Shown piece after piece: positions 51,432-63,096 of a stretch of DNA of 64,000 bases. Origin of the DNA: Sphingomonas sp. LaA6.9 (GTDB taxonomy: Bacteria; Pseudomonadota; Alphaproteobacteria; Sphingomonadales; Sphingomonadaceae). Made by a program: the position numbers and the translations under genes. The notes under the pieces are model-generated. The model worked only from the letters and a program-made list of their open reading frames with translations, was not told the origin of the DNA and ran no database searches. The first letter of the stretch is position 1, and every line of letters begins with the position of its first letter. The DNA lies in the NCBI RefSeq assembly GCF_022601895.1, contig NZ_JAKVIO010000008.1, positions 1 to 64,000 on the forward strand, written 5' to 3'.

Positions 51432-52724
51432 CTACTGCTTGGTCGCAGCGGGTGCTGGCGTTCCGATCGGCGGCTCACCCTCCATCGACGCCGCCACCTT
51501 CTCGGCGGTCGCCATCACGCGCAGCACGTTCTCGCCTGCGAGTTTGGCTACATCGGCATCGCTCCATCCCCGCCGCATAAGTTCGGCAAGCAGGGCGGGA
51601 TAGGTCGTCACGTCACTCAACCCCTGTGGCAGAGTGTTGCTGACGCCGTCATAGTCCGATCCCAGCCCGACATGATCGACGCCCGCAACGCGCGCGATAT
51701 GTTCGATGTGGTCGGCGACCTGCGAAAGCGTGACCTTGGGAGCGGGATGCTTGCGTTCCCACGCAGCGAAAGCGGCCTCCGCCTTGTCGGGCTGCCCGAT
51801 GTACAGCCCGCCGAACGGAGGGGCGTTCAGCCGCGTCCTTTCGGCCGCGGCATCGGCTGACCAGCGCCGATAGGCGTCGGACACGTAGCTATTGGCGTAG
51901 TTGACCATGACGACGCCGCCATTGGCCGCCACCAGTTTGAGCACCTCGTCGGACACGTTGCGCGGGTGGTCGTTCAGCGCGCGCGCATTGGAATGCGAAT
52001 AGATGACGGGCGCGCGCGATACGCGCAGCGCGTCCTTCATCGTCGCTTCGCTCACATGGCTGAGGTCGACCAGCATCCCAAGCCGGTTGAGCTCGTGCAC
52101 GACCGTTTCACCGAAAGCCGTCAGCCCGTCATGCTTCGGATTGTCGGTTGCTGAATCGGCCCATGCGATGGTCCTCGAATGGGAGAGCGTCAGATAGCCC
52201 GCCCCCAGATCGTGATAGGTGCGCAGCACCGAAAGACTGCCGTCGATCTGGCCGCCGCCCTCGACACCGATCAGTGATGCGATCTTGCCCGCTGCATGGA
52301 TGCGCCGGACGTCATCCGCTGTGCGTGCAAGCGCGAAATCGTCGGGGTAGCGCGCTGCGAGGCCGTGCACGACGTCGATCTGCTCGAGCGTCTGCTTGAC
52401 CTGTTCGAGCCCGGGAAGGTTAGCGGACACGTAAACCGACCAGAACTGACCGCCCACCCTGCCGCGCCGCAACCGCTCGATATCGGTGTTGTAGGGGACG
52501 GGCTTTCCGGCAAGGCCGCTGCGCAGGTCAAGCGTCCAGAGCCCTTCGCCCTCGCGCTCGCGCAACGCCTCCGGCCAGTCATTATGCCCGTCGATCAGCG
52601 GCGTCGCCTTGAGAACGCGTGCCACCCGCTCCTCGTAATTCTGTGCATGGACGGGTGGGGCGGCGGCGATCAATGCTGTTATCGAGGCAAGTGTTCGAAT
52701 GCTCCTGGCGAATTTTGCGGCCAC
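51432..52724 (-). CDS. Secreted M19 membrane dipeptidase
   Basis: 430 residues. A signal peptide ends PPVHAQ. The complete renal-dipeptidase metal set is visible: LIDGHNDWPEAL (HxD), LIGVEGGGQIDG (bridging Glu), LVDLSHVSEAT and SHSNARALNDHPRN (His ligands), and VGLGSDYDG. These enzymes cleave dipeptides with a D- or dehydro-residue at the C-terminal side. It is the intact counterpart of the altered paralogue at 45 kb. It is convergent with the TonB receptor and probably monocistronic. Confidence 0.93.
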   Translation of the reverse strand: MAAKFARSIRTLASITALIAAAPPVHAQNYEERVARVLKATPLIDGHNDWPEALREREGEGLWTLDLRSGLAGKPVPYNTDIERLRRGRVGGQFWSVYVSANLPGLEQVKQTLEQIDVVHGLAARYPDDFALARTADDVRRIHAAGKIASLIGVEGGGQIDGSLSVLRTYHDLGAGYLTLSHSRTIAWADSATDNPKHDGLTAFGETVVHELNRLGMLVDLSHVSEATMKDALRVSRAPVIYSHSNARALNDHPRNVSDEVLKLVAANGGVVMVNYANSYVSDAYRRWSADAAAERTRLNAPPFGGLYIGQPDKAEAAFAAWERKHPAPKVTLSQVADHIEHIARVAGVDHVGLGSDYDGVSNTLPQGLSDVTTYPALLAELMRRGWSDADVAKLAGENVLRVMATAEKVAASMEGEPPIGTPAPAATKQ

Positions 52725-52853: not shown

Positions 52854-53864
52854 TCAACCCGAAATGCCGGAGAGGAACCGCGCAACATTGTCGCCCAGAT
52901 CGCCGACGGCGTAACCGCCTTCCATGACGATCAGGGTGGGCAGTCCAGTGGTGCCGATCCGCGCTCCGATCCGCGCGAAATCGGCAGCTTCGATCGCAAA
53001 GTGCGAGATCGGATCACCCGAGAATGTGTCGGCGCCGAAGGACACGACCAGGAATTTCGCGCTCCATTCGGATATGCGCGAGATCGCGGCATCAAGCGCG
53101 GTCAGATAGGCGTCGACCCGCGTTCCGCGCGGCAGCGGGATATTGAGGGTCGCACCCGCACCTTCGCCCTCGCCGGTCTCGTCGGCATGCCCCCAATAGA
53201 AGGGATAGTCGGTTGCCGGGTCAGCGTGGATCGAGGCGAAGAAAACGTCCCCGCGCGCATGGAATATGTCCTGCGTGCCATTGCCGTGATGATAGTCGAT
53301 ATCGAGGATCGCGACGGGGCCGACACCCGCATCCTGCGCCGCCTGTGCGGCGATCGCCGCATTGTTGAGATAGCAATAGCCGCCCAGATAGTCGGCACCG
53401 GCATGGTGCCCCGGCGGCCGGCACAATGCGAACGCAGTCTGCGCGCCGCCAAGCAGGGCGTGCAGGCCGCTCAGCGCGGTCTGGGCCGACCAATAGGCGC
53501 TCTCCCAGGTGCCGGGGCCGATCGGCGTGGCGGCGTCGAAGCTGTAGCGACCCAACCGCGCGTCGATCCGGGTCAGCGGAATGCGTCGTCTTGCAACGAT
53601 GGGCCAGGTATAGCCGATCGCATCACCGTCGCGTCCGGCGGCGCGCCAGTCGTCATGGGCCGAGCGCAGAAATGCAAGATATTCCGCGTCATGGATCCGC
53701 GAAATCGGTGCCATGCCGAAATCGCGCGCGGGAGAGAGATCGCCGAGTGCGTCGGCGATATTCGCCGCGCGCGCCGGACATTCGGCATAGCTGGCCCATG
53801 TGCCGTTATGGAGTTCGCGCTCGGGCGCATGGTCAAGCTGGCGGGGATCGAAGAAGCGCAACAT
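52854..53864 (-). CDS. Histone-deacetylase-family amidohydrolase (acetylpolyamine amidohydrolase-like)
   Basis: 336 residues. The zinc deacetylase motifs are complete: CRPPGHHAG (His dyad), ILDIDYHHGNGTQDIF (Asp/His zinc ligands), SFGADTFSGDP and VMEGGYAV. The opening ends with CPARAANI like the acetylpolyamine branch. It probably deacetylates acetylated polyamines in the cytoplasm. The ATG at 53864 has a weak ribosome site; a start at 53906 is possible. Confidence 0.88.
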   Translation of the reverse strand: MLRFFDPRQLDHAPERELHNGTWASYAECPARAANIADALGDLSPARDFGMAPISRIHDAEYLAFLRSAHDDWRAAGRDGDAIGYTWPIVARRRIPLTRIDARLGRYSFDAATPIGPGTWESAYWSAQTALSGLHALLGGAQTAFALCRPPGHHAGADYLGGYCYLNNAAIAAQAAQDAGVGPVAILDIDYHHGNGTQDIFHARGDVFFASIHADPATDYPFYWGHADETGEGEGAGATLNIPLPRGTRVDAYLTALDAAISRISEWSAKFLVVSFGADTFSGDPISHFAIEAADFARIGARIGTTGLPTLIVMEGGYAVGDLGDNVARFLSGISG

Positions 53865-54086
53865 TTTTGACGCTATAGCATCCCGTTTGCCAGCACCGAA
53901 GGTCAATTGCTGTGGTGTTCAGGCCTGGGGAGGGGAGGGCGGAACGTCAGACGCCGAGGTTGCCCCTGACCGAATATGCAGAGTCATGGGGGCGTGCCTC
54001 GCCCCACCGCGTGCTATTACCATCTCGTCGGTTGTAGAGCGGAGTTCACCTGTTGTTCAGGCCATGCGGACTGTTCAAGGAGATCG

Positions 54087-55337
54087 ATGAAGCTTCAGGG
54101 AACACCTCTAATCCGGATTGCAAAGGCGGTGGTTCCGCCGGCGCTCATGCTCGCGCTGCCCGCCCAGGCGCAGACGCCCGGAACTGTAAACGACTTCAGG
54201 CTTCCACCCGGCGACAACGCGCAGAGCGCTCCCATTACCGGGCCGGTGGACCCGACACTGCCCGTGTCGACGAGGGATATTCCAGCGCCATTGCCGCAGT
54301 CCGCCCCGGCCACGCCTCCGGCCACAACCGAGGCCGCGCCCCCGCCGATTGTCATTCCCCTGTCGCCCGCCAGATCGGCGGATGCCAGCCCCCCGTCTCA
54401 ACCGGCAGCGCGTGCGCCAGCGGCGGAAGCCGCTCCGAGCGCGTTGCCCGCGCCGGAACCGTCCCGCCAGCCAGCCGCAGCCGTCCCCCCTGAGCCGCCT
54501 CCGGCCGCTTCCGCTGTACCAATGCGACGCGCCCCGAGCGTAGACCCGGCTCCGGCGCGATCGCCTTCGTGGATTATGTGGCTGCTCGGCGGGGCGCTGC
54601 TCGGGTTGCTCGTGGCTGGCATCGGATTTGGCTGGCTTAGAAGGCGGCGCTCCGGTGCCGGCGGAGATGTCGGGCAAACAGAGGAGGCGCGGTTGCCCGC
54701 GCGAACGGCACGCGTGCCGACGCCCAGGGCCCGCACGTCTCCGCCACCGGTTGCGCCCGGCCAGATCGAGCTTGTGTTCGAGCCCCTGAGCCTGACCATG
54801 GCACTGGTCAACGCGAGGCTTGCCTACCGATTGTCGGTGAAAAATCTCGGCGATACGGTCGTCGGGCCCGTCACCATTGCGTGTGACATTATCTCGGCCC
54901 ATGGCTCGCTCACGCCTGGCGAGCAACTCCTGTTCGAAGGCGAAATGGTTGAGCCGCAGCATCGGCTTGCTTCGCTTGCCCCTGGAGAAGCCGTCTCCGT
55001 CACAAGCGAGCTGCAAACCCCGATCGCCGCCATCCGGCCCATCTGCAGCGGCGACGCAAACCTGTTCGTACCGCTTGCGCGCTTCCACATTACCGCGCTG
55101 GGCACAGGCTCGCGGCCGTTCATCAATACCCGGATTTTCGTGATCGGCGAACGGCCCGAACTGCCCCGCGAGCGGCTCAGACCCATCCGGATCGACGCCG
55201 GGCGGCGGACATTCTCGCCCCTCAGCCATCGCGAGATTGAATCAGCCGCCTATTTGCGCGCCGGGAAGACTGGCAAGACGGGCACGGGCTTGCCCGATCA
55301 TCTCCGTGGCAATCGCTACGCATCGCATCTCAGGTGA
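54087..55337 (+). CDS. Hypothetical membrane-anchored Pro/Ala-rich protein
   Basis: 416 residues from an ATG with AAGGAG 3-4 bp upstream. The order is a signal peptide (ending PAQAQ), ~130 residues of Pro/Ala/Ser-rich low-complexity chain, one membrane helix (WIMWLLGGALLGLLVAGIGF) with an Arg cluster after it, and a compact beta-rich domain of ~160 residues (GQIELVFEPLSLTMALVNAR to TRIFVIGERPE). Topology places the last domain in the cytoplasm if the signal is cleaved. I do not recognise the family. It is convergent with the fusion gene, with 21 bp between stops. Confidence 0.75.
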   Translation: MKLQGTPLIRIAKAVVPPALMLALPAQAQTPGTVNDFRLPPGDNAQSAPITGPVDPTLPVSTRDIPAPLPQSAPATPPATTEAAPPPIVIPLSPARSADASPPSQPAARAPAAEAAPSALPAPEPSRQPAAAVPPEPPPAASAVPMRRAPSVDPAPARSPSWIMWLLGGALLGLLVAGIGFGWLRRRRSGAGGDVGQTEEARLPARTARVPTPRARTSPPPVAPGQIELVFEPLSLTMALVNARLAYRLSVKNLGDTVVGPVTIACDIISAHGSLTPGEQLLFEGEMVEPQHRLASLAPGEAVSVTSELQTPIAAIRPICSGDANLFVPLARFHITALGTGSRPFINTRIFVIGERPELPRERLRPIRIDAGRRTFSPLSHREIESAAYLRAGKTGKTGTGLPDHLRGNRYASHLR

Positions 55338-55358: not shown

Positions 55359-58300
55359 TCACCAGCTGGTGATGCTCGTGTGCCGAAGGTCATGGATGCT
55401 GACATTTGGCAGGCCGGCCTTCGATCGGGCAGCGTCCCAGCTCTTGAAGAACGAACCAAACGGCTTCCTGGTCCGCGGATTGGCGATCACATGGGGGCAC
55501 CCGTCCCAGCGCGGCAACTGTTTGATGACGTCAATCGCGCCCGCCGACAGGGGCACGTGATTGGCCTGACGCGATTTTGACGGCGGAATGCGCCAGAGAC
55601 AGTTTTCGAAGTCGATGTCGTCCCAGTGCGCGTTCAGCAGCTCGTGTATCCTGAGGCTCGTCAGCAAAAGCAACGCGACGATGAATCGGAGCTGGGGATT
55701 GTGGCTGGCAAGGGCGGCTTTTCGCAACCGCTCCACCTCGTCCGGCGACAGGACATGCTCGCGCTCGCTGCCATGCTTGACCAGCGGCAGCCTGTGGATC
55801 GGGTTGATCTCGGCACCGGGCACGCCCCACCGGCTCGCCATGACAAACATGTACCGCAGAATGCCGTGGAGCCGTTTGACAGTGGCCGGTTCGTCAGCCG
55901 CATCCTTGATCGTGGCCCCGAGCCAGGCCGCAACATCCGATTGAGCAACCTCGTCCATGCGAAAGCGGCCGAACTTCGGCAAGATGTGCTTCCGCAGATG
56001 GAGCTCATGGATTTCGCGGGTTCGCTGATGGCGTTTAAGATGATGGAGGTAGCGCCGCGAAAATTGCTCGATCGTCGGAATCGCACGCCGGTCCTCATTG
56101 GCGGGCTTCGGGCCGTCCTCCGGATGTCGGGCCGAGGCAGGATCCTGACCTTCATCGCTCCCGGTCCGGCCGCGCACCACCGCTTCGGCCGAGGGTGGCA
56201 GGGCGTGCGCCGCGAGCGGCAGGCCAAGCTTTTCCGCGAACTGTTCAAATGTGAAGGGATCCGCGTCATCCCACAACTGTGTGGTGCCCGGGTGCCCGGA
56301 CGCAGAGAGGCCGAAGGTGCCGAGCACATAGGGTGACACCCGATGGCTGGTGCATAGTCCGCCATTGCCGTCGCTCACCAACGGCAACCCGAACTCGATA
56401 CCATGCTGCCGCCTGATGGCGCGACGCACCGTGGCCACCGCCAGCTGGCCATCGCCGAAATCCATGACGGTGGGCGTGCCCGGCGGAACATCGAGGAGCC
56501 CTTCGATCAGCGCGCCCGTTTCCGAGAGATTGCGGATCAGCACGGGATGATAATAGTTCCCCAGTATCGCGCCGGCTTTTCGGTACATCGATTGCCGATC
56601 GCTGCGCTGCGTCGCCGGGCCCGAGGGAGGGATGGTCCAATCCTCGCTCCCCAGACGCTGTACGAGGTCATCGGAGCTGATGGCTCCGCTATAAACATAG
56701 CCCTGGACATGGCTGACGCGCAGATTGCGGACCAGCTCCAGCTGGTCGAGCGACTCGATGCCCTCCGCGGTGGTCTCCATGTCGAGCGCGTCCGCGAGCG
56801 CGACGATTGCCGCGATGATCGCCCCGTTCCGCGATCCGGATATGGTGGCACCCCGTACGAAGCTCTGGTCGATCTTGATCTTGTCGAACGGTGCGGTCTT
56901 CAGATAGCCGAGCGAGGAATAGCCCGTCCCGAAATCGTCGAGCGCCAGCCGCACGCCGATATCCTTGAGGACCGAAAACATGGTGTCGGTCTCGGCGGAT
57001 TCGCTGAGGAAGACGCCTTCGGTCAGCTCGAGCTCGAGCCGTTCGGCCGGCAGGCCCGACGCGGCCAGCGCCGACATGACGATCCTGGGCAGCGATTCAT
57101 TCGTGAACTGGATTGGCGAGACGTTTACGGCGACCCTGAGCCGTCCGGGCCATTTCGCCGCGTCTTCGCACGCCTTTCGTAAGACCCATTCGCCGAGTGG
57201 TGCGATCAGGTTCGCTTCTTCGGCGATCGGAATGAACAATGCCGGCGAGATTGGCCCGCGCACGGGGTGATGCCAGCGGATGAGCGCTTCGACCCCGGTG
57301 ACACGGTTGCTGCTGGCGTTGACGATCGGCTGATAGAAAAGCCCGATTTCGCCTTTTGCCAGCGCGTCGCGCAGGTCTTCTTCCAGCAGGCGCTTGTCTT
57401 CGGCGGCCTGCAGCAGATCGCTGGAAAAGAATCGGAAGCGGCTGCGCCCGCTGCCCTTTGCGGCATAAAGGGCCAGATCGACATTGCGGATCAGCTCTTC
57501 GCTCGTGCAGCCATCGATCGGCGCAACCGCCACACCGATCGACGCCCCGATGATGCACCGGCTGCCTTCGATCGAATAAGGCTGCGACAGGCTCGCGATG
57601 ATGTCGTTCGCCAGCGTCCCGAGCACCCCGCGGTCCTCGCAATCGGGCAATATGATCTGGAACTCATCGCCGCCCAGGCGAAAGACCTTCTGCTTGTCTC
57701 CCACGATCTTGAGCAGTCGTTCGCTGACCTGCTTCAACAGCGCATCGCCTGCCGGGTGCCCGAGCGTATCGTTGACCTGCTTGAAGCGGTCGAGATCAAT
57801 GAGGATGACGGCGCATGGCCGCTTTTGCTGCTCGAGGGCCAGAAGGCTGCTCTCGAGCGCCCTTGTCATGCACAGCCGGTTGGGCAGGCCGGTGAGCGAA
57901 TCGTACATCGCCAGTTGCGATGCGTGTTCTGACGTTCGTCGCTGTTCCGTGATGTCGATGCCGGATCCGCGATAGCCGGAGAATTTGCCCGCCTTGTCGA
58001 ACTGGGGATAGCCGGACACCAGCCAGCAGCGGTCGTCGTGTGGCGTCGCAGATTTCAGCGTGAGCTTCTCGAAGCTCGTATGTTTGGTCAGAATGAATGG
58101 CAGCGTCCGGCTTACCCCCGAGCCGTCATCTGCCTGTTCGAAATGGTCGGTAAATGCGGATCCGAGCAGATGCTCCGGTTCATGGCCGAGCATGTGACAG
58201 ATGCTGTCGGTCAGATAGGTCAGGCGCCCTGCGTGATCAGTCGACCAGAACCACCCCTGGCACGATTGTTCGAAGTTGCGGAGAAGCAGCAAGGCTTCGG

Positions 58301-58439
58301 CCGAGTTGTCGAGCAGCCCGGCGGAATCCATCGGCTTGCCGGAACGCAGCGGCAATTTTCCCAGAATGCCGTTCTTGTGGTCAGCGCGCGCGCTGTGGTC
58401 GTTCTGGCTGCCCTGCAAGAAACGAATTCTGGCCATCAT
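55359..58439 (-). CDS. PAS-GGDEF-EAL-PilZ protein fused to a truncated tyrosine recombinase
   Basis: 1026 residues. PAS ~50-165; GGDEF domain ~175-340 with an intact GGDEF (256-260); EAL domain ~345-585 with EAL (384-386), ELTEG and DDFGTGYSSLGYL intact; PilZ ~605-695 with IRNLSETG (the D/NxSxxG motif). After a charged linker, ~785-870 is a SAM-like core-binding domain (FSRRYLHHLKRHQRTREIH) and ~885-1026 a tyrosine recombinase catalytic domain. The latter has box I Arg930 (LTSLRIHELL), strand Lys955 (SKSRQANHVPL) and H1016-DLR1019. It stops 7 residues after that Arg, so the LGH/Tyr segment is missing. It should make and break c-di-GMP and bind it. The recombinase end may bind DNA but cannot cut by the normal mechanism. 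The ATG at 58439 is preceded by GGAAG. Confidence 0.88.
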   Translation of the reverse strand: MMARIRFLQGSQNDHSARADHKNGILGKLPLRSGKPMDSAGLLDNSAEALLLLRNFEQSCQGWFWSTDHAGRLTYLTDSICHMLGHEPEHLLGSAFTDHFEQADDGSGVSRTLPFILTKHTSFEKLTLKSATPHDDRCWLVSGYPQFDKAGKFSGYRGSGIDITEQRRTSEHASQLAMYDSLTGLPNRLCMTRALESSLLALEQQKRPCAVILIDLDRFKQVNDTLGHPAGDALLKQVSERLLKIVGDKQKVFRLGGDEFQIILPDCEDRGVLGTLANDIIASLSQPYSIEGSRCIIGASIGVAVAPIDGCTSEELIRNVDLALYAAKGSGRSRFRFFSSDLLQAAEDKRLLEEDLRDALAKGEIGLFYQPIVNASSNRVTGVEALIRWHHPVRGPISPALFIPIAEEANLIAPLGEWVLRKACEDAAKWPGRLRVAVNVSPIQFTNESLPRIVMSALAASGLPAERLELELTEGVFLSESAETDTMFSVLKDIGVRLALDDFGTGYSSLGYLKTAPFDKIKIDQSFVRGATISGSRNGAIIAAIVALADALDMETTAEGIESLDQLELVRNLRVSHVQGYVYSGAISSDDLVQRLGSEDWTIPPSGPATQRSDRQSMYRKAGAILGNYYHPVLIRNLSETGALIEGLLDVPPGTPTVMDFGDGQLAVATVRRAIRRQHGIEFGLPLVSDGNGGLCTSHRVSPYVLGTFGLSASGHPGTTQLWDDADPFTFEQFAEKLGLPLAAHALPPSAEAVVRGRTGSDEGQDPASARHPEDGPKPANEDRRAIPTIEQFSRRYLHHLKRHQRTREIHELHLRKHILPKFGRFRMDEVAQSDVAAWLGATIKDAADEPATVKRLHGILRYMFVMASRWGVPGAEINPIHRLPLVKHGSEREHVLSPDEVERLRKAALASHNPQLRFIVALLLLTSLRIHELLNAHWDDIDFENCLWRIPPSKSRQANHVPLSAGAIDVIKQLPRWDGCPHVIANPRTRKPFGSFFKSWDAARSKAGLPNVSIHDLRHTSITSW

Positions 58440-58753
58440 GCGCTTCCACTGGTCCCCACCGTCAACGATCAATAACGGATCGTAATTGCGGAAGCGTAAA
58501 TGGATTGATCATTTTGGCTGATGCCAGACATCACCTATATGCTGACCGCTTGTTCACTGTGTCGGTGTCGCAAAGGGACTGGGGCGCAACCTTTATATTA
58601 TGAGGAAATGTCCTCTCCCGGAGCGTGGCTGCCCTGTAACAAAATGTTTCTGTGGGCATCGAAACGCTGGCTGTGACGCGAAATGCGACCTATCTATGCG
58701 GGCAGACGCTTGGCCTTCGCCATAACTCCAGACGAGCCTGCACGCCTTTTCAA
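58440..58753. promoter_or_regulatory. Intergenic control region between the fusion gene and the two-component system
   Basis: 314 bp without a gene. It holds TGTAACAAAATGTTTC (58635-58650), which matches the reverse complement of the repeated box upstream of carbonic anhydrase in 13 of 16 positions. A weaker copy, TATGAGGAAATGT (58599-58611), matches in 10 of 13. These suggest autoregulation of the response regulator gene. Confidence 0.5.
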
Positions 58754-60892: not shown

Positions 60893-61582
60893 GTGAACGA
60901 ACTCATCGGTCGTATCTTTTCTTTCGAGAAGCAGGTTTTCCCCAATCAGAGTACGCTTTATGCGCGTCTGGCCAGAGACGGGCAGAGCCCGAAGGCATTG
61001 ATGATCTCCTGCGCGGATTCGCGCGTCGTGCCCGAACACATCATGCAGGCAGAGCCTGGTGACCTGTTCGTCTGCCGCAATGCGGGCAATATCGTGCCGC
61101 CCTTCGCCACGCAAAATGGCGGTGTATCCTCGACCGTCGAATATGCGGTCGCGGCGCTTGGCGTGCGTGACATCATTGTCTGCGGTCATTCGGACTGCGG
61201 CGCGATGAAGGCACTGGCGGTCGACCAGGATCTCAGCGCCATGCCCAATGTTGTCGCCTGGCTTCGCCATTCGCACGCCGCGCACAAGGTCGTGACCGAG
61301 AGCTACCCCGCGATGGACGATGGCCAGCGTATTCGCGCGGTCTCGCTTGAAAATGTCGTCATCCAGCTTGCGCATCTGCGTACGCATCCGTCGGTCGCGG
61401 CCGGCATTGCGCGGGGCGAGATCGCGCTTCACGGCTGGTTCGTTGATCTCCATGCCGGCTCGATTCTGGGCCTTGATGGAGAGACCGGCCGCTTCGTGCC
61501 GCTGCGCGAGGGCGAACCGCTGCCCGTGGCGCTGCCGCAGGCCGCGAGACGTGCCGCCGATTTCGCAGAGGCTGCGGAATGA
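60893..61582 (+). CDS. can: Beta-class carbonic anhydrase
   Basis: 229 residues from a GTG with AAGGAG 8-9 bp upstream. Zinc ligands are in SCADSRVVP (Cys, with the Asp-Arg dyad) and VCGHSDCGAMKA (His and Cys). VCRNAGNIVPP is another family block. It interconverts CO2 and bicarbonate in the cytoplasm. It overlaps the SulP transporter start by 4 bp, so bicarbonate handling is probably coordinated. Confidence 0.96.
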   Translation: MNELIGRIFSFEKQVFPNQSTLYARLARDGQSPKALMISCADSRVVPEHIMQAEPGDLFVCRNAGNIVPPFATQNGGVSSTVEYAVAALGVRDIIVCGHSDCGAMKALAVDQDLSAMPNVVAWLRHSHAAHKVVTESYPAMDDGQRIRAVSLENVVIQLAHLRTHPSVAAGIARGEIALHGWFVDLHAGSILGLDGETGRFVPLREGEPLPVALPQAARRAADFAEAAE

Positions 61583-63096
61583 GCATCGCCATGCCAGGGC
61601 TCGGCAAGAGCGCTTCGCGCGACTTCACAGCTTCGATCGTCGTCTTCCTCGTTGCCATGCCGCTGTGCATGGGGATCGCGATCGCCTCGGGCGTGCCGCC
61701 CGAAAAAGGGCTGATCACGGGGATCATCGGCGGCATTGTGGTGGGTGCGCTCGCGGGCTCGCCGCTTCAGGTGAGCGGCCCGGCGGCGGGCCTTGCCGTC
61801 ATCGTGTTCGAGATCGTCCGCGATCAGGGTCTGTCGGCGCTTGGTCCGATCCTCGTTCTCGCCGGACTCATCCAGCTGTTGGCGGGGGTGTTCAGGTTGG
61901 GTGGCTGGTTCCGCGCCATCTCGCCCGCCGTCGTCCACGGAATGCTCGCGGGCATCGGCGTGTTGATCGTTCTTGGCCAGTTCCATGTGCTTTTCGACGC
62001 GAAGCCTTTGCCTGGTGGCATTGATAATCTCATGGCGATGCCCGGCCGCATCCTCGGGCTGTCCCCTCAGGCGGGAAGCGGGGCATCGGCAGCGTTCGCG
62101 ATCGGTATCCTGACGATCCTTGCGATGCTGGGCTGGGAACGCTGGCGCCCGCGTGGCCTGCGCCTCGTGCCAGGTGCATTGATCGGCGTCGTGATCGCTA
62201 CGCTGGTCGCATTCGGATTCGACCTTGCTCTTGTCCGTGTCGATGTCCCGCAGTCGATCATGGGCGCGGTTGCCCTGCCCGATGCCGGCTTCCTGGCCCA
62301 ACTCGCCCAACCCTCGGTGATCACGACCGCGATCGCCATCGCCTTCATCGCAAGCGCGGAAACGCTGCTGTCGGCGGCGGCGGTAGACCGGATGCATGAC
62401 GGTGTGCGCACCAACTATAACAAGGAATTGCGCGCGCAGGGCGTGGGCAATCTGCTGTGCGGCGTTGCGGGCGCACTCCCCATGACGGGCGTTATCGTGC
62501 GGAGCTCCGCCAATGTGCAGGCCGGCGCCCTGACAAGGCTGTCTGCGGTACTTCACGGCGTCTGGATTCTCGGTTTCGTGGCGCTCTTGCCCTGGCTGCT
62601 GCGGGAGATACCCATGGCGGCGCTAGCGGGTGTGCTCGTCGTGACGGGAGCCAAACTCGTCAGCCTCGATCATGTGAAGCATCTGTTTGACCGCTACGGG
62701 CCGCTGCCCGCGTTGATCTGGGCTGGCACCTTCCTGATGGTAGTGACCACCGATCTGCTGACCGGCGTTCTGGTCGGGCTCGCGCTCTCCCTGATCGAAC
62801 TTGTCCCGCATGTCCGCAAGCTCGGGCTCCGCGCCGATCAGCGGCAAGAGGGAGAGACTCATGAAATCGTGCTCGACGGGACCGCTACTTTCGTCGCGTT
62901 GCCGAAGCTCACGGCGGCGCTGGATGACGCGCCTGTGGCGGGCAGGCTCCGGCTCAACGTCGAGCGCCTGAGGCACATTGATCACACCTGCGCCGAAATG
63001 CTCGGTGAATGGATCAGGCGACGGCGTGAATCGGGAATCGCCGTGGAACTGCAGGGCGCAAACGGACGGCTGGAACGCCTGGCAAACGCCGTATGA
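61579..63096 (+). CDS. SulP family inorganic anion (probable bicarbonate) transporter
   Basis: 505 residues. About 12-14 membrane segments open with DFTASIVVFLVAMPLCMGIAIASG and the SulP signature LQVSGPAAGLAV. AVDRMHDG, YNKELRAQGVGNLLCG and TGVIVRSSANVQAG are further conserved loops. The C-terminal ~90 residues are a STAS-like domain (LRLNVERLRHIDHTCAEMLGEWI). Coupling to carbonic anhydrase by overlapping genes favours bicarbonate over sulfate. It overlaps the next gene by 4 bp (ATGA). Confidence 0.92.
   Translation: MSIAMPGLGKSASRDFTASIVVFLVAMPLCMGIAIASGVPPEKGLITGIIGGIVVGALAGSPLQVSGPAAGLAVIVFEIVRDQGLSALGPILVLAGLIQLLAGVFRLGGWFRAISPAVVHGMLAGIGVLIVLGQFHVLFDAKPLPGGIDNLMAMPGRILGLSPQAGSGASAAFAIGILTILAMLGWERWRPRGLRLVPGALIGVVIATLVAFGFDLALVRVDVPQSIMGAVALPDAGFLAQLAQPSVITTAIAIAFIASAETLLSAAAVDRMHDGVRTNYNKELRAQGVGNLLCGVAGALPMTGVIVRSSANVQAGALTRLSAVLHGVWILGFVALLPWLLREIPMAALAGVLVVTGAKLVSLDHVKHLFDRYGPLPALIWAGTFLMVVTTDLLTGVLVGLALSLIELVPHVRKLGLRADQRQEGETHEIVLDGTATFVALPKLTAALDDAPVAGRLRLNVERLRHIDHTCAEMLGEWIRRRRESGIAVELQGANGRLERLANAV

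Follow-up and report, generated by a model that had tools for sequence, protein, structure and literature searches.

We analysed a 64,000-nucleotide stretch of the genome of Sphingomonas sp. LaA6.9 (contig NZ_JAKVIO010000008.1, positions 1 to 64,000; hereafter the window), which carries a minus-strand gene joining the PAS, GGDEF, EAL and PilZ domains of a cyclic di-GMP (c-di-GMP) protein to a truncated tyrosine recombinase. The fusion is real and forms a single protein. We read at least 14 complete fused proteins, in 14 genomes from 7 genera that all belong to a single family, Sphingomonadaceae or one close to it. The recombinase part appears to be a domesticated pseudo-recombinase that acts as a docking or regulatory module of the c-di-GMP protein, a reading drawn from sequences and predicted structures to which we give a probability of about 0.5.

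The minus-strand frame 55359–58472 of the window is open across 1,037 codons. Translation from the ATG at 58436, chosen by alignment with homologues, gives 1,025 residues; another ATG, at 58439, lies one codon upstream. See Table 1 for the domain boundaries. The Pfam models that exceed their cut-offs in the window protein are EAL (228 bits), GGDEF (146), Phage_integrase (53) and PAS_4 (33.3, cut-off 23.1). The core-binding part of the recombinase scores 19.8 bits, below the cut-off of 22.6. The Phage_integrase match spans profile positions 2–136 of 172, and the frame ends HDLRHTSITSW-stop. The linker after PilZ starts with a stretch resembling the tail of unfused proteins and continues into a short helix region; Leu737 is invariant in 9 aligned proteins, and residues 743–785 have low confidence in the predicted model. 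GC content at third codon positions (GC3) is fairly even along the gene and does not jump across the PilZ-recombinase junction, with values of 0.71 (PAS), 0.82 (GGDEF), 0.81 (EAL), 0.79 (PilZ), 0.73 (linker), 0.75 (core-binding) and 0.80 (catalytic). An initial annotation, made from the letters alone, had read this domain order in one frame begun at the upstream ATG, with no frameshift at the junction and a linker in local codon use. The open frame, the Pfam matches and the PilZ motif, segment and fold matches given below bear out the order, the single frame runs straight through the junction, and the GC3 of the linker agrees with the codon-use statement.

Table 1. Position and domain layout of the fused gene in the window
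Feature	Residues	Position	Strand	Basis or remark
Whole fused gene	1025 aa	55359..58436	(-)	start ATG 58436, stop 55359-55361
PAS domain	49-170	57927..58292	(-)	PAS_4 33.3 bits
GGDEF domain	176-333	57438..57911	(-)	Pfam and signature
EAL domain	353-583	56688..57380	(-)	Pfam and catalytic residues
PilZ domain	604-690	56367..56627	(-)	segment profile match below cut-off, N-x-S-x-x-G, Foldseek
Linker	691-790	56067..56366	(-)	alignment and model
Core-binding (SAM-like) recombinase part	791-893	55758..56066	(-)	weak Pfam and fold match
Truncated catalytic part	894-1025	55362..55757	(-)	Pfam, alignments, fold match

The loss of the recombinase active site is the clearest feature of the fused family. 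For comparison we used stand-alone integrases from genome searches (33 loci, 28 of them distinct), which are the top matches to the fused query, distant integrases being left out. All 28 carry the complete R/K/H/R/H/Y set. The fused copies keep Arg I (14/14) and Arg II (14/14); the hairpin Lys is present in 2/14 and His II in 3/14, with Asp in the other 11, and both His III and the nucleophilic Tyr are absent (0/14 each). In all 14 complete copies the frame ends 4–42 residues past Arg II. The window copy alone unites Arg I (R929), the Lys (K954), and His II and Arg II (HDLR, with Arg II at R1018), and is among the least altered copies. Its last residue is a Trp, 7 residues past Arg II and far from the usual His/Trp III place. 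Tyrosines do occur in the tails of three copies, 8 residues past Arg II in L113 and directly past it in L081 and L109, too near to serve as the nucleophile. In a structural alignment, the end of the predicted C-terminal-half model falls at lambda Int residue 318; the catalytic Tyr of that enzyme we take to be residue 342. Its His III is residue 333, according to a table in PMC10516654. Because His III and the Tyr are missing in all 14 copies, recombination by the known mechanism is impossible and strand cleavage has no known route, an intact recombinase is ruled out, and the early idea that c-di-GMP controls site choice or recombination is not supported.

The fold, in contrast to the active site, appears to be largely retained. 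The C-terminal-half model has a mean predicted local distance difference test (pLDDT) score of 83.5 and aligns with lambda Int over 226 residues at a Z score of 14.5 and a root mean square deviation (rmsd) of 7.9. The catalytic part alone matches PDB 3nkh (Z 14.1, rmsd 2.4 over 132), and the core-binding part matches the fold of integrase core-binding domains. Structural matches to two repressors, MrpR (8a0a, Z 10.0) and phi3T SroF (9rd5, Z 10.4), were also found at Z scores that helical folds generally can reach. In the PDB, the whole model scores best against two GGDEF-EAL proteins, MorA and PA0575. Two structure predictions were run, the first drawing on 9 of the 14 fused proteins and the second on all 14 and 15 stand-alone ones. 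As modelled, the core-binding fold is retained, and so is most of the catalytic fold. Of the two recombinase domains first described, the core-binding one is supported by the model though its Pfam score is weak, and the catalytic one is incomplete.

The c-di-GMP domains were checked residue by residue in the 14 complete fused copies, the window's included. The GGDEF signature is present in 13, the window's among them, and reads SGDEF in one. No copy (0/14) has Arg at the place that we take to be the R-x-x-D inhibitory site. The EAL-x-RW motif is present in 14/14, as are E383, N438, E473, D500-D501, K521, E558 and Q578, positions that we take to be the functional ones of EAL domains. The description of GGDEF and EAL as intact thus stands for the window copy, and for the EAL residues it extends to the whole set. 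PilZ is absent from the whole-protein Pfam list of the window protein at E ≤ 1, and the window's PilZ segment alone scores 15.3 bits against a cut-off of 22.5. When the PilZ segment of the window protein was aligned with those of 8 unfused relatives, all 9 hit the PilZ profile at E ≤ 0.1 (best E 2.1e-12). All 8 of the other fused proteins searched match at E ≤ 5 (0.0002 to 0.23), with none over the cut-off. The N-x-S-x-x-G motif (NLSxxG) is intact in 14/14, and the first PilZ motif is Q-R-x-x-R, not R-x-x-x-R, in 14/14, in a register set without a solved-PilZ anchor. A Foldseek search with the C-terminal-half model found c-di-GMP-bound PlzA over 65 columns (rmsd 2.6, E 0.062). A PDB sequence search with the PilZ segments returned no PilZ chain, and the VIA-align list was dominated by the recombinase part, so that PilZ was barely probed there. 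We noticed no transmembrane stretch when reading the protein by eye, without a predictor, and it is probably cytosolic. The protein is, we infer, either a c-di-GMP phosphodiesterase or a dual enzyme, cytosolic and equipped with a receptor for c-di-GMP.

We propose that a PAS-GGDEF-EAL-PilZ protein gained the core-binding domain and most of the catalytic domain of an integrase at its C-terminus, probably once in the sphingomonad family. The integrase part has since lost its cutting machinery, with the fold, the hydrophobic core and both phosphate-clamp Arg residues kept. EAL would hydrolyse c-di-GMP, PAS and GGDEF would tune EAL, and PilZ would sense the c-di-GMP pool. The pseudo-recombinase beside PilZ would bring the c-di-GMP enzyme to a partner in a c-di-GMP-dependent manner, the partner being either a protein or a phosphate-bearing ligand bound through the Arg pair. 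We rank docking to a protein or a small phosphate ligand over DNA binding, since fold and phosphate clamp have persisted while the DNA surface eroded. Several observations weigh against this proposal. The 9 loci compared have no neighbouring genes in common. The distribution is patchy (1/5 genomes of the window's own genus and 3/7 of genus g111), and therefore the function is dispensable in many relatives. The basic charge retained by the window copy favours DNA docking for that copy. Finally, and perhaps beside the question, the two halves of the protein disagree within subclades on the partners of L083 and L079. A more specific and more tentative version of the proposal holds that the active site, though retired, still serves as a pocket for phosphate. 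The domain would then be a PilZ-gated output domain binding a second messenger or nucleic acid, that is, a c-di-GMP-controlled pseudo-recombinase; the invariant Arg pair and the basic positions 959, 976, 991 and 1004, retained in 86–93% of copies, make this possible, and we would not put it higher than that.

The rival that survives best is a c-di-GMP-responsive DNA-binding regulator, in which the dead recombinase would bind DNA without cutting it, under the control of PilZ or of the enzyme's state. PMC10516654 offers a precedent by analogy in MrpR, a recombination-dead tyrosine-recombinase fold that works as a DNA-binding repressor. The core-binding fold and most of the catalytic fold, as modelled, and the two phosphate-clamp Arg residues in 14/14 copies are also consistent with such a regulator. 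To follow the DNA surface, we examined 27 columns in which 70% or more of the stand-alone integrases have a basic residue, and 65 hydrophobic columns. Fused copies retain 47% of the basic columns (15/27 in the window copy), whereas stand-alone integrases retain 86% in leave-one-out comparisons, with a lowest value of 62%. The hydrophobic columns are retained at 93%. The best-kept basic positions are Arg I, Arg II, 959, 976, 991 and 1004 (86–100%; the latter four 86–93%), and position 959 is Asn in the window copy. Net charge averages -0.8 over the core-binding part of 13 fused copies versus +7.8 in 27 stand-alone integrases, and +1.4 over the catalytic part of 14 fused copies versus +6.9 in 28 stand-alone integrases. 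The window copy itself carries +7 and +5, inside the stand-alone range, and non-cleaving DNA binding is most plausible for this little-changed copy. Two further points speak against DNA binding. The C-terminal helices that contribute to the DNA cleft of known recombinases are missing. In L084 (genome G319) most of the core-binding domain has been lost in frame, with the catalytic remnant retained. Overall, we regard a DNA-binding regulator as a possible but less likely answer. The initial suggestion of direct c-di-GMP control of DNA binding may still hold but is weakened by the loss of basic positions and, in most copies, of net positive charge.

It is improbable that the recombinase part is an inert tail, left behind when an integrase long ago inserted at the 3' end of a PAS-GGDEF-EAL-PilZ gene and now neutral to selection. 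The lost catalytic residues would fit such a remnant, and so would the fast evolution of the linker and the core-binding part. The ratios of nonsynonymous to synonymous change (pN/pS) were computed for 9 of 91 possible gene pairs and are rough, because the synonymous divergence (dS) of these pairs runs from about 0.6 to saturation. They are 0.49–1.01 for the linker and 0.31–0.73 for the core-binding part. The catalytic remnant, at 0.25–0.58, mostly falls below the linker and resembles PilZ (0.23–0.53); EAL has 0.10–0.27. The catalytic remnant thus looks to be under purifying selection. In addition, the frame has stayed open in 14 copies despite this divergence, the hydrophobic core is kept, and the Arg pair is invariant, all of which argue against neutrality.

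Far less likely still is a decoy against mobile elements, in which the dead domain, under c-di-GMP control, would pair with same-family integrases as they come in and poison their synapse. The parent integrase family is frequent in the same bacteria and the part that donates the Tyr is missing. However, the domain is at most 49% identical to any stand-alone integrase compared, its basic positions are eroded, and PADLOC gave no match for the fused protein, on which ground a defence system was rejected. An active c-di-GMP-controlled site-specific recombinase can be dismissed: although Arg I, Lys, His II and Arg II all occur in the window copy, His III and a Tyr at the nucleophile position occur in 0/14, and the window's frame ends with the 3' end of a convergent gene about 20 bases on. 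An assembly or sequencing artefact is equally remote, and was rejected because the same fusion, with identical domain order and the same truncation region, recurs in 14 assemblies and because 8 other copies are 37–58% identical to the window's over the C-terminal half, even though the assembly is a draft of 95 contigs and 2 of 16 copies have broken frames.

The distribution of the fusion was surveyed in 397 genomes of the family, with residues 606–1025 as query, and in 396 genomes of the order plus single genera. The family survey covers the best matches and the later ones those past a threshold, so that copy counts are lower bounds and weaker copies may have been missed. The complete copies are those of the window (genus g1), of G357, G180 and G117 (g111), of G253 (g74), of G249 (g64), of G327, G490, G554, G649, G625 and G627 (g98), of G319 (g71) and of G100 (g94). 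Besides the two genus counts given above, the fusion is present in 6/71, 1/26 and 1/13 genomes of single genera, and in 2/10 genomes of one further genus when a broken copy is counted. These copies show the conservation in related genomes that the initial annotation had left to be checked. Among 385 genomes of the class, the fusion was found in the window's genome alone. The sole other class match at E ≤ 1e-55, in G742, is a 459-aa frame that matches the integrase part only, and it was rejected as a fusion outside the family. A scan of an 84,980-species collection returned one close locus, B12, and 7 distant integrases.

Two further copies have broken frames, B12 (G408, locus L086), whose genome belongs to the same family as the window's, and THN1 (L121). 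The latter lies on plasmid pTHN of Novosphingobium sp. THN1 (Sphingomonadaceae), which is 1.16 Mb long and typed as conjugative. Its frame breaks at the PilZ-linker border, which may reflect decay or a sequencing error. The recombinase part of the THN1 copy is truncated in the same region as the complete copies and lacks the same residues, with Arg II replaced by Gln; therefore, it is not an independent integrase. Relatives with PilZ and integrase as two separate genes would have spoken against the fusion. The THN1 frame break is one partial instance, and the closest unfused relatives simply end after PilZ.

We next consider the origin of the fusion. Trees and alignments were made without the frame-broken copies B12 and THN1. 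The recombinase-part tree, built on 341 columns from 14 fused and 28 stand-alone proteins, sets the fused copies apart with an ultrafast bootstrap (UFBoot) value of 93. The tree of the N-terminal part, with 14 fused proteins and 19 of the 29 unfused-type loci fetched (659 columns), groups them at UFBoot 96. An enlarged N-terminal tree, built with FastTree from 52 sequences and 648 columns after adding 19 closer unfused proteins and without L140, gives the fused group an SH support of 0.996. The three trees have three subclades in common: the window copy with L082 and L084; L081, L109, L110, L112 and L113; and L078, L079, L080, L083, L085 and L111. A single old fusion is the simplest reading because the 14 copies cluster together for either half and split into these three subclades each time, and one fusion event followed by joint inheritance probably accounts for the family. 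The enlarged tree strengthens this claim and has no bearing on mechanism; the picture may change with further unfused paralogues. The nearest unfused relatives in the enlarged tree are L124 (G333) and L138 (G229), both of genus g111, whereas the smaller tree gave L011 as sister. Genus g111 thus holds the unfused L124 and L138 as well as three fused copies.

Within subclades, the halves are not fully congruent. The recombinase tree joins L083 to L111 (support 100) and L079 to L078 (97), whereas in the N-terminal tree the partner of L083 is L085 (90) and that of L079 is L080 (69). This disagreement may come from long branches or exchange. Genus g98 has members in two of the subclades, a sign of transfer or of an old duplication; the conjugative-type plasmid of THN1 may be a vehicle for transfer. 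In several relatives, namely G006, G012, G018, G019, G020, G022 and G029, we also observed 2–3 tandem PAS-GGDEF-EAL(-PilZ) paralogues with differing frame lengths.

The source of the C-terminal domain, judged by its sequence, is the phage-type stand-alone tyrosine integrases that are common in the same bacteria. The domain matches phrog_1, the PHROG family of phage-type tyrosine integrases, at 135 bits over profile positions 162–404 of 611. In IMG/VR we found 4 integrase matches at 24–29% identity, none of which starts before query residue 142, so that all lie beyond PilZ. A viral origin of the fusion as a whole was rejected, these 4 matches being confined to the integrase part, with surrounding frames not read.

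Genomic context gives no clue to function, because neighbours are not shared. An all-against-all blastp of the neighbours at 9 of the 14 loci found none in common beyond minor matches: distant two-component parts at 26–33% identity, one L080/L085 pair at 42–43%, and a GGDEF-EAL gene near the L081 copy. In the window, the convergent gene 53976–55337 (+) ends 21 bases before the stop codon of the fused gene. It is a 453-aa frame with a Pro/Ala-rich stretch and has no Pfam match above cut-off. Downstream frames, read by eye, showed no integrase continuation in another frame past the stop. Farther away, at 60893–63096 (+), a carbonic anhydrase gene overlaps by 4 bases the gene after it, which encodes a SulP-family permease with a STAS domain; the two resemble a bicarbonate uptake pair. 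A histone-deacetylase-like protein is encoded at 52854–53906 (-), adjoining a membrane dipeptidase M19 gene at 51432–52724.

Searches for the whole protein were likewise negative. For the window protein and two other fused proteins, no whole-protein NCBIfam model reached its cut-off among the 25 matches listed for each; the best match of the window protein was DibA, at 422 bits against a cut-off of 980. Three unusually long frames of relatives carry PilZ, at G172:C1:310024-310356 (1238 aa), G316:C1:587975-588313 (1112 aa) and G564:C29:2323-2652 (1036 aa), and the query matches them in the PilZ part only. The initial annotation knew of no protein joining c-di-GMP turnover and sensing to a recombinase fold, and our literature search agrees, having found no description of the fusion in titles or abstract openings outside subscription journals and preprints.

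These results describe a mobile-element enzyme apparently captured by a bacterial signalling protein and disarmed alike in each of the 14 complete copies. Should the domain bind DNA or a nucleotide, the c-di-GMP level could be read or set at a defined chromosomal place. If it binds a protein, it would be a new way of localising c-di-GMP turnover. If the phosphate-pocket idea is true, c-di-GMP turnover would be physically and directly tied to nucleic-acid binding of the recombinase type.

Among known systems, MrkH-type PilZ transcription factors tie a c-di-GMP receptor to a DNA-related output; to our knowledge they have neither turnover domains nor a recombinase fold. The unfused PAS-GGDEF-EAL-PilZ proteins of the same family share the N-terminal architecture of the fused proteins and end soon past PilZ with no recombinase, as seen in the 19 loci and the 19 closer ones; three of the first 19 (L027–L029) lack PilZ too. 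Phosphodiesterases of the type of DibA, DosP and Zymomonas ZMO1055 have a PAS-GGDEF-EAL core with an intact EAL, like the fused protein, which differs in carrying PilZ and a pseudo-recombinase after EAL. The available part of PMC12900916 presents ZMO1055 as PAS-GGDEF-EAL and contains no mention of an integrase or recombinase. The stand-alone phage-type integrases of phrog_1 are complete in their catalytic set, unlike the fused domain. Because His III and the Tyr, two defining features of a tyrosine recombinase, are missing, we class the protein as a GGDEF-EAL protein with a new C-terminal module and not as a tyrosine recombinase. A recombinase-class pseudo-enzyme is already known as a phage repressor; in the fused protein, such a domain is joined to an enzyme and receptor of c-di-GMP. 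SroF of phi3T, known to us from its PDB title alone, is a recombinase-fold phage repressor. MrpR (YopR), the SPbeta repressor, has a recombinase fold without recombinase activity (PMC10516654); it has lost Arg I and kept the Lys and the Tyr. In this MrpR is nearly the reverse of the fused family, whose copies keep both Arg residues, have lost the Tyr, retain the Lys in 2/14, and carry c-di-GMP domains.

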